DNA from: Macrococcus epidermidis
GTDB taxonomy: Bacteria; Bacillota; Bacilli; Staphylococcales; Staphylococcaceae
Assembly: GCF_003259695.1 (NCBI RefSeq)
Contig: NZ_PZJH01000002.1
Coordinates: 62,001-126,000 of the forward strand
Reading direction: 5' to 3'
Length of the DNA stretch: 64,000 nucleotides
A model generated the notes under the pieces. The model ran no database searches. It saw only the letters and a list, made by a program, of their open reading frames with translations, and had not been told where the DNA came from. The position numbers and the translations under genes were made by a program. Below, piece by piece: positions 5,970 through 51,518 of this stretch; the first letter of the stretch is position 1; every line of letters begins with the position of its first letter.

Positions 5970-6015
5970 GTGAGTGGTCGAAATAATAGATATTTCGACC
6001 ACTCACATACTTTTT
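5970..6015. terminator. Hairpin terminator, GAGTGGTCGAA repeat family copy 1
   Basis: Sixteen-base perfect stem GTGAGTGGTCGAAATA with a 5-base loop, followed by a T-run at 6011. It terminates the PPK2 gene. The same core recurs in the next hairpin and after ampS at 45958 and 46018. Confidence 0.8.
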
Positions 6016-6027
6016 GAAATAAAAAAC

Positions 6028-6075
6028 AACACCGAGTGGTCGAATTATTACGTAATCCGACCACTCGGTGTTTCT
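6028..6075. terminator. Hairpin terminator, GAGTGGTCGAA repeat family copy 2
   Basis: Fifteen-base stem AACACCGAGTGGTCG / CGACCACTCGGTGTT, with flanking A-run on the left and T-run on the right. It probably terminates mroQ on the minus strand. Confidence 0.75.
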
Positions 6076-15931: not shown

Positions 15932-16076
15932 AAGGGTTTTATGTAAGCAATACTATCATATAATCAAACCTCAGGATCTTATCAAGAGTAAATTACAAAA
16001 GAATCATTTAAATCAATACTTTCACTTTGAATACATGTATTTGAAGTGAAAGGTAATTATTTCAAAAATAGTAAAA

Positions 16077-16125
16077 CCTGTATCTTAAATTACTTAATAG
16101 TAACATAAGATACAGGCTGATTTTT
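16077..16125 (+). terminator. Terminator with 11-bp stem
   Basis: CCTGTATCTTA / TAAGATACAGG arms around an 18-base loop, followed by CTGATTTTT. It lies about 150 bases after the membrane protein gene ending at 15931. The sequence between shows nothing coding. Confidence 0.7.
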
Positions 16126-16166
16126 ATTCATTGCTATTTAACTAAAGCACCCGTTAGTGAAAATAT

Positions 16167-16337
16167 TTATCGGTTTTTGCCACAACCTTCTTTCTTTGAT
16201 TCTTTGCCTGAAAACACTATACCAAATATACTGCCCGTTCCTATTCCAAAAGCCACCGAAACACCTATATTATCAAATATCAACAATCCAATAACTGTCA
16301 TTATCATGATAAATACAATACTTTTACTTGTATTCAT
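16167..16337 (-). CDS. Small membrane protein
   Basis: 56 residues from an ATG 11 bases after AGGAG. It has two hydrophobic segments (about 5-22 and 24-42), a glycine-rich turn (GIGTGSIFGIVFSG), and a basic tail with one Cys (KKEGCGKNR). Coding is supported by the ribosome site and composition. Function unknown. Confidence 0.5.
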   Translation of the reverse strand: MNTSKSIVFIMIMTVIGLLIFDNIGVSVAFGIGTGSIFGIVFSGKESKKEGCGKNR

Positions 16338-16452
16338 TACTAAAATCACTCCTTTTCATTTTATATCCTAAACCAACGTAAATTCCCTTGAAATCATCAA
16401 ATTCAATGTGGGAAAGCAACTTTACGTTAAACCACATCAGTAAAAATTACGA

Positions 16453-16617
16453 TTAGGAAAGTTCTTTTTGAACTTTTTGACGATAGGCTTCATCACTAAG
16501 TAATTTTGGCTCGAAGGAATTTAAATTATGACTGAGTAGAATCTGTTGCCAAATGTTCAAATCATTTGTGAGAAGAACTATTTCTATTTTATTGCCATTA
16601 TAATCTTCTGCATACAT
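16453..16617 (-). pseudogene. Probable gene remnant downstream of XRE module A
   Basis: A minus-strand frame open from about 16671 to a TAA at 16453 has protein-like composition (EIVLLTNDLNIWQQ, SFEPKLLSDEAYRQK). It has no ribosome site or convincing start: the first ATG at 16617 gives 54 codons. An upstream in-frame stop overlaps the end of the membrane gene at 16670. It is best read as the C-terminal remainder of a lost gene. Confidence 0.4.
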
Positions 16618-16669
16618 TGCATCATTTAGGATGAATGCTGGCGATTCACCTTTTCCACATTTATCTGTG

Positions 16670-16972
16670 TTAATATCTTCTTTTTAATACCGTTAGGATA
16701 CTAGCATGAAGAATCATTAAACCTGTAATTAAAAACCAAATGGCTAATTTATATGTTTCATAGTCCAGATGACTAATGAACTGATCATATAATTCAATTA
16801 AAAACCATCCAAGAGGTATTAACGGAAAAACAAGACCATAAGATTTATTTGAAATACTTTGTCCACGTTCATCTTTATTCTCTTCTCCCATTTCGAATTT
16901 TAAAGAAATAAACACTGCAACAAAGAATATTAATACATATACAACACGTAAGATGGCTAGGAAAATATCCAT
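16670..16972 (-). CDS. Membrane partner of XRE regulator A
   Basis: 100 residues with three or four helices and a polar loop KDERGQSISNKSY after helix one. The two proteins of the XRE module at 51.5 kb carry the same DER-containing loop (LLDERVVALSNRAF and DDERDQRVLLESF), so the three belong to one family. It starts two bases after the regulator stop; its ribosome site is inside the regulator gene. Such HTH-membrane pairs are common in Firmicutes, with unknown role. Confidence 0.75.
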   Translation of the reverse strand: MDIFLAILRVVYVLIFFVAVFISLKFEMGEENKDERGQSISNKSYGLVFPLIPLGWFLIELYDQFISHLDYETYKLAIWFLITGLMILHASILTVLKRRY

Positions 16973-16974
16973 AT

Positions 16975-17205
16975 TTATTTCTCCTCCTCTATTTCATACT
17001 GAAAAACATCGTGTAAATCTACACCAAATAGAAGTGCAATATCGAATGCTAACTTCAAGGATGGATTGTATCTATTTTTTTCTAGGGATATAATGGTCTG
17101 CCTACTGACATCTAATTTATCAGCGACTTCTCGTTGTGATAAGCCTCTTTCAGCTCTTAATACAACAATTCTATTTTGAATTTTTCTATTGTTATTTAAT
17201 GGCAC
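16975..17205 (-). CDS. Small XRE (Cro/CI-type) regulator A
   Basis: 76 residues from a GTG nine bases after AGAGG; a TTG six bases earlier is too close to that site. The helix-turn-helix is LSQREVADKLDVSRQTIISLEKNRYNPS, and the C-terminal DLHDVFQYEIEEE is a dimerisation-type tail, as in YgzD-like regulators. It heads a two-gene operon with a membrane protein. A long inverted repeat directly upstream, containing two palindromes, is the likely autoregulatory operator. Confidence 0.88.
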   Translation of the reverse strand: MPLNNNRKIQNRIVVLRAERGLSQREVADKLDVSRQTIISLEKNRYNPSLKLAFDIALLFGVDLHDVFQYEIEEEK

Positions 17206-17228
17206 CTTCAATCACCTCTTATACTATG

Positions 17229-17292
17229 ATGGTAAAATATTTATTACTAAAAGTAAAGTATTTTTTACTTTTAGTAATAAATATTTTACCAT
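17229..17292. promoter_or_regulatory. Long inverted repeat, paired operators of XRE A
   Basis: A perfect inverted repeat has 29-base arms and a 6-base centre. It contains two 13-base palindromes, TTACTAAAAGTAA (centre 17250) and TTACTTTTAGTAA (centre 17271), exactly 21 bases or two helical turns apart. The central junction reads GTAAA-N6-TTTAC, the same site found twice before XRE C at 51.5 kb. It ends 18 bases before the regulator start. Confidence 0.65.
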
Positions 17293-17542
17293 AAATTTTC
17301 AAGTTGAACACAGGTAATTGATTTTAAGATTAGAATGTTAATAAACAACTAATCATAAAATTGAAGTAAAACTATTTCATGCTTTAGAATAGATATAATG
17401 GATACGGCTTATTCTCCACTTCTATCCTTTGAACCCTCACACGTTCCCTCCTCTTTAAACACTTTAAGTACTATTATTTATTATACTATGGTTAACTATT
17501 TTCACTGAATATATGGTATATTTTTCAAAAAGGGGTGGGGAT
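17293..17542. other. Intergenic region before paiA
   Basis: About 250 bases of A/T-rich sequence between the XRE A operator and paiA. A minus-strand GAGGAGGG stretch near 17448 resembles a ribosome site but leads straight into a stop codon. No gene or stable hairpin was recognised. Confidence 0.4.
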
Positions 17543-18688: not shown

Positions 18689-18709
18689 CAATGTCATGTG
18701 GGATTTATT
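18677..18709 (+). terminator. Terminator after the CXXC/membrane gene pair
   Basis: A 13-base stem AATCCCGCATGAC pairs with GTCATGTGGGATT (one G-U) around a 3-base loop. Its right side touches the start of the next inverted repeat. Confidence 0.7.
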
Positions 18710-18754
18710 ATAGTCATTTTGACTAATATACTTGTCAAAATGACTATAATAAAT
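18703..18754. promoter_or_regulatory. Long inverted repeat, paired operators of XRE B
   Basis: Perfect 21-base arms around a 10-base centre. Within it are TAGTCA-TTT-TGACTA (centre 18718) and TGTCA-AAA-TGACT (centre 18739), 21 bases apart. The same spacing is found before XRE A, but the half-site is different (AGTCA). It ends 39 bases before the regulator start. Confidence 0.65.
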
Positions 18755-18793: not shown

Positions 18794-18997
18794 TTGAAAA
18801 ATAGGTTAAAAGAGCTACGTGCAAGAGATGGATACAACCAAACCCAGCTTGCCAAACTTGCGCATGTCTCAAGACAAACGATTTCTCTAATAGAACGCGA
18901 AGACTTTATGCCATCCATCTTAACTGCAGTACGCATCGCAAGAATATTCAATGAACCAGTAGAGAATGTATTTATATTTGAGGAAGATGAGTTATGA
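18794..18997 (+). CDS. Small XRE regulator B
   Basis: 67 residues from a TTG preceded by GAAAGGAG. The HTH is YNQTQLAKLAHVSRQTISLIERE, followed by SILTAVRIARIFNEPVENVF, a YgzD/YozG-like Cro protein. The recognition region differs from regulators A and C after VSRQTI, in keeping with its different putative operator. The usual membrane-protein partner is missing or reduced to a short ORF downstream. Confidence 0.87.
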   Translation: MKNRLKELRARDGYNQTQLAKLAHVSRQTISLIEREDFMPSILTAVRIARIFNEPVENVFIFEEDEL

Positions 18998-51486: not shown

Positions 51487-51518
51487 GTAAAGTTTCCTTT
51501 ACGTAAAGGAAACTTTAC
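51487..51518. promoter_or_regulatory. Perfect 32-base palindrome, paired operators of XRE C
   Basis: A 32-base perfect palindrome without spacer, made of two adjoining 16-base sites, GTAAA-N6-TTTAC each (51487-51502 and 51503-51518). The same GTAAA-N6-TTTAC is at the centre of the XRE A operator. It ends 28 bases before the regulator start. Confidence 0.7.

Follow-up and report, generated by a model that had tools for sequence, protein, structure and literature searches.

In lambda/434-type phage control regions, several adjacent dimer sites overlap a promoter. The CylR2/CylR1 system of Enterococcus faecalis pairs a short XRE protein with a small membrane protein, CylR1, which has three transmembrane segments, and is associated with a lantibiotic operon. 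PMC5454873 describes CylR1 as membrane-bound and as acting upstream of CylR2 release.

A locus comparable with both is present in a 64,000-nucleotide stretch of Macrococcus epidermidis DNA (contig NZ_PZJH01000002.1, positions 62,001 to 126,000; hereafter the window), where a long inverted repeat lies upstream of the gene for a short XRE regulator, XRE A, and a small membrane protein (Table 1). We propose, with a probability of about 0.8, that this repeat serves as operator and promoter of an autoregulated operon for a membrane-coupled repressor of the CylR2/CylR1 kind, because its predicted sites have a 21-bp pitch, a promoter register common to relatives and linkers of constant length, because XRE A is homologous to CylR2, and because the same pitch recurs at a second regulator, XRE B. 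The locus differs from that of CylR2/CylR1 in that the associated gene encodes a beta-lactamase-family hydrolase and three phased predicted sites lie on the regulator's own promoter. It resembles lambda/434-type control regions in having adjacent predicted dimer sites over a promoter, but here there is one promoter, a putatively autoregulated operon and an exact 21-bp pitch, and no lysogeny switch is seen.

Table 1. Coordinates of observed and predicted features of the XRE A locus in the window
Feature	Coordinates	Strand	Details
Whole inverted repeat	17229..17292	.	Arms 29 nt, loop 6
Predicted operator site 1, GTAAAATATTTATTAC (upstream)	17274..17289	-	GTA-N10-TAC 16-mer; PWM score 19.5
Predicted operator site 2, GTAAAAAATACTTTAC	17253..17268	-	-35 in right end; PWM score 20.5
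Predicted operator site 3, GTAATAAATATTTTAC	17232..17247	-	-10 in right end; PWM score 19.5
Predicted -35, TTTACT	17252..17257	-	Register common to relatives, TTKAC pattern; 4/6 to consensus
Predicted -10, TACCAT	17229..17234	-	Spacer 17; 4/6 to consensus
Mirror-image promoter-like element, TTTACT-17-TACCAT	17264..17292	+	Follows from perfect symmetry
76-aa CylR2-like XRE regulator (XRE A)	16975..17205	-	GTG start; HTH_3 6.9e-15; CylR2 (1utx) phmmer E 6.8e-14
100-aa 3-helix membrane protein	16670..16972	-	Invariant DERG motif; no Pfam/NCBIfam family
Remnant (C-terminal end) of third operon gene, beta-lactamase-family hydrolase	16453..16658	-	HMM match 6.2e-35

The regulator, its membrane-protein partner and their distribution

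XRE A falls within the CylR2 type in size and fold, with a Cro/C1 helix-turn-helix (HTH) in a protein of ~66-80 aa and homology to CylR2. Among solved structures, the closest match by sequence (E 9.9e-19 over 62 residues) is PDB 9k3w, entered as "Transcriptional regulator, PbsX family", for which no account of an operator or a partner was found. ATG occupies the position of the GTG start at 17205 in several relatives; an alternative TTG start at 17211 would give a regulator of 78 aa. The membrane protein is likened to CylR1 by position and helices, rather than by shown homology. Its DERG motif is invariant across a 25-sequence alignment, and its AlphaFold model is helix-only (mean pLDDT 95.4), with three long helical stretches predicted. 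Searches of Pfam and NCBIfam placed the window protein in no family, 25 members of its family gave weak, scattered Pfam matches, and Foldseek comparison of the model with the PDB gave no match at E ≤ 0.001. Carriage on plasmids was considered and rejected, as a tblastn search with the protein against 72,556 plasmids, which may or may not include a cylR1 record, found no match.

Loci were collected by searching genomes with the membrane protein as query. It was present in 2/9 genomes of the genus, 2/108 of the family, 4/157 of the order (E ≤ 1e-6) and 21/398 drawn from the class (E ≤ 0.001), counts that include the window's genome, and in 25/261 genomes in the family of a Sporosarcina genome and 35/159 in that of an Oceanobacillus genome (both at E ≤ 1e-6 and including the centre genome). 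Ten named loci were added, one of them weak, and 12 duplicates (L040-L049, L068 and L096) and a 31-residue weak match (L018) were dropped; from one of the two family searches, only match rows that carried a locus were used. At 57 of the 81 non-duplicate loci, parsing placed an XRE gene directly upstream of the one for the membrane protein, the other 24 being without a parsable XRE gene; the ladder counts below rest on these 57, some of which are closely related to each other, and are thus counts of non-independent events.

The third gene, at 24 of the 57 loci with the window remnant included, encodes a beta-lactamase-family hydrolase (PF13354) with an N-terminal hydrophobic stretch. It is intact in a same-genus relative, Salinicoccus, Phocicoccus and others; in the window, ~1.1 kb is deleted, from just before the start to near the C-terminal end. 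Two blastn blocks of window DNA, 16652-17398 and 15977-16658, are 98% identical to DNA of Salinicoccus sp. YB14-2, an identity that spans both flanks of the deletion (15977-17398); the blocks meet at 16652-16658 (7-bp overlap) and lie ~1.1 kb apart in L008 and in L016, a Salinicoccus locus. In Salinicoccus sp. YB14-2, the membrane-protein gene is preceded, at a distance of 0.7 kb, by open reading frames (ORFs) with phage-integrase and DUF6262 domains, which adjoin the module (L016:1405-2325); we take them to resemble a Tn554-type element. The 98% identity, the integrase/DUF6262 neighbours and the patchy distribution together point to arrival of the module by recent horizontal transfer. Full-text literature searches listed no paper that describes this operon in its title or in the opening of its abstract.

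Predicted operator sites and promoter

The initial annotation claimed 29-base perfect arms beyond chance expectation and two TTACT-N3-AGTAA words 21 bp apart, and all of this was borne out. The left (17229-17257) and right (17264-17292) arms are 100% complementary (29/29) around a 6-nt loop, making this the top perfect inverted repeat of the window at loops of up to 20 nt, ahead of arms of 21 nt at XRE B and then 18 nt; in 12 first-order resampled 64-kb sequences, the longest reached 13 nt at most. Elsewhere in the window are a loop-free perfect 32-bp palindrome, GTAAAGTTTCCTTTACGTAAAGGAAACTTTAC (51487-51518), and two adjacent inverted repeats with a common word, GAGTGGTCGAA (5970-6072).

The repeat looks like an operator of the adjacent Cro/C1-type regulator, as the initial annotation had suggested, and its two-turn (21 bp) phasing would suit dimers on the same face. 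The repeating unit, however, is not the palindrome that was named. On the minus strand, in the direction of the regulator gene, the 64-bp repeat has the sequence ATG-GTAAAATATTTATTAC-TAAAA-GTAAAAAATACTTTAC-TTTTA-GTAATAAATATTTTAC-CAT. It contains three GTA-N10-TAC sites of 16 bp, with a 5-bp linker between one and the next; the pitch is exactly 21 bp, so that predicted site 2 lies 21 bp from each neighbour. Both TTACT-N3-AGTAA palindromes are junctions, each made of a site end, a linker and the start of the next site. The exact palindrome pair 21 bp apart occurs at 1/57 loci, the window alone; 16-mers at the 21-bp pitch recur widely.

A position weight matrix (PWM) for the site matched three times at 23 of the 57 loci, twice at 28, once at 5 and not at all at 1. 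Among the resulting 97 site pairs, window included, 70 were 21 bp apart, 25 were 42, one was 63 and one was 20; in 200 rounds of Markov-resampled upstreams, no locus had a 21-bp pair. By hand count, 10/57 loci have no 21-bp PWM pair, among them L033, with a spacing of 20 bp, and L035, which was mis-parsed. The loci counted here had also served to train the matrix; the following two tests are independent of it. Motif-free base identity over lags 8-49 was highest at lag 21 (0.477) and second highest at lag 42 (0.392). Bare GT-N12-AC words formed 118 pairs, 73 of them at 21 bp and 31 at 42, and gave a 21-bp pair at 45/57 loci. Among parsed loci, the linkers vary in sequence and are constant at 5 bp in length.

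A predicted promoter is built into the sites, the -35 hexamer lying in the right end of site 2 and the -10 in that of site 3. This register is fixed over the predicted sites in all 54 parsed loci, 48 of which retain the final T of the -10, a position beyond the operator. The promoter is weak, with 8/12 matches to consensus, and is absent from the list of a promoter scan because that scan required at least 9.

The three ladder sites are the only perfect matches to the core pattern in the organism's own genome. Allowing up to one mismatch, GTAANNAATANNTTAC matched 54 times genome-wide, against 93 for a reversed control. The paired-site pattern, searched on both strands, gave 26 matches against 70 in the control, of which only the ladder and C30:5923 were perfect. 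A wider regulon was rejected, as no further target of the regulator is indicated at this stringency. With no other perfect core site in the genome, the simplest target would be its own operon.

These features suggest a model in which three dimers of the regulator would bind the three 16-bp sites on the same helix face, two helical turns apart. Bound site 2 would cover the -35 and bound site 3 the -10, site 1 would add cooperativity, and binding would shut off the regulator's own operon. By analogy with the action of CylR1 on CylR2, the 3-helix membrane protein may pass on a signal from the envelope and so free the repressor; in relatives, release would also raise levels of the membrane-anchored hydrolase.

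Hairpin potential and the origin of the perfect arms

As RNA, the repeat would fold very stably (-32.9 kcal/mol, where shuffled sequences average -5.95; z -11.8), and a transcribed hairpin had been put forward as an alternative role, which could be that of an attenuator, stabiliser or terminator. The comparative data make this highly improbable. Arm complementarity is 29/29 in the window alone, 24-26 in the nearest relatives and 8-26 across relatives with a full 64-mer, and the predicted transcript start lies downstream of the repeat. The initial annotation had named degeneration of one arm in relatives as refuting its reading; such degeneration is seen, and it counts against the hairpin, not the operator. 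Pairing is demanded by a hairpin alone only in the linkers, and across 27 distinct three-site arrays with the window excluded, pairing in the linker columns is 0.474, compared with 0.421 when partners are shuffled (reached in 145/2000 shuffles), which gives no clear hairpin signal. Site columns in the same arrays pair at 0.799 against 0.758 (1/2000). Without the six closest loci, the values are 0.436 against 0.401 for linkers (385/2000) and 0.768 against 0.748 for sites (81/2000); sites 1 and 3 thus slightly tend to match each other, most among close relatives. Rfam gave no match above gathering, its three matches at E ≤ 1 being microRNA families far below that level, and no terminator-like site was found. 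An RNA element was rejected on these grounds, and because the next-best arms after the window's pair at 26/29, it is the predicted sites, not the hairpin, that appear to be conserved.

Why the arms are perfect in this genome is a separate matter. Compared with L008, L009 and L016, the window has private substitutions at 5/64 ladder positions and 2/660 flanking positions (Fisher p 8.5e-5). All five ladder substitutions make arm pairing perfect: three turn the right arm into a copy of the left, and two are left-arm G-to-A changes, one at ladder position 9 and the other, a direct match to the right arm, at position 24. When the majority sequence of relatives (26/29) was given random sets of five changes, 2/2,000,000 reached 29/29. 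These comparisons were made after the fact, on 5 substitutions and 3 outgroup sequences. Template-switch mutation in a quasipalindrome perfects an imperfect repeat by copying from one of its arms (PMC7202029; PMC8794818), and the clustering of private changes looked for as a mark of such correction is present. The likeness lies in the perfected repeat; here, the process is proposed from a natural bacterial promoter rather than from experiment. Given that the five private changes are clustered in the ladder and all perfect the arms, their symmetry is probably a lineage-specific by-product of template switching in a quasipalindrome, by which an already symmetric ladder would have been made perfect.

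Selection could instead have perfected the arms, favouring either three strong, symmetric sites or a divergent promoter directed at the GNAT gene (17543). Two of the private changes, at positions 49 and 56, do bring site 3 nearer consensus (15.6 to 19.5), and because the arms are perfectly symmetric, an identical promoter-like element faces that gene on the plus strand, with no evidence of use. The changes at positions 24 and 45 of the 64-mer, however, are in linkers, outside the sites, and also perfect the pairing, and the concentration of private changes in the ladder over the flanks likewise favours template switching; we consider selection the less likely explanation, though one to be taken seriously.

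A second ladder at XRE B

The window encodes a second short regulator, XRE B (18794-18997, plus strand), that is 38% identical to XRE A and has the second-longest repeat of the window in its promoter region (18703-18754; 21-nt arms, loop 10). Parsing succeeded at 29 of 30 homologous loci and yielded 27 distinct upstreams, in which base identity was again highest at lag 21 (0.433) and then at lag 42 (0.374). A loose 16-mer pattern with GAC/GTC ends, picked after the sequences had been viewed, which is not so for the lag test, placed 20/25 site pairs 21 bp apart. The XRE B operator thus differs from that of XRE A in sequence but has the same pitch. In L139, arm bases of an XRE B-type repeat appear changed on both sides, from TTATAGTC/GACTATAA to TGATAGTC/GACTATCA.

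The identity between the two proteins and the common pitch of their operators raise the question of whether the sites upstream of XRE A bind another regulator, such as its paralogue XRE B. This is improbable, since the ladder adjoins XRE A homologues across families and XRE B loci have GAC/GTC rather than GTA/TAC ends. We tentatively suggest, as a possibility that we hold at less than even odds, that an exact 21-bp ladder of 16-bp sites with promoter hexamers in the site ends is a regulatory grammar common to short XRE repressors, as a large class that has mostly gone unstudied. Half-sites would differ between branches (GTA/TAC for XRE A and GAC/GTC for XRE B), and the XRE A branch would belong to an undescribed membrane-coupled signalling operon, comprising the XRE gene, the DERG membrane protein and a membrane-anchored beta-lactamase-family hydrolase, that moves between Bacilli families.

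The window is a natural case of an inverted repeat, in a predicted promoter, that was perfected in one lineage, so that arms able to pair stably are not in themselves a sign of selection for a hairpin. If the fixed spacing rule with its embedded promoter is true, it would become possible to read from sequence where many unnamed regulators of the short XRE type have their operators, and the rule would also pair such regulators with an uncharacterised membrane partner.
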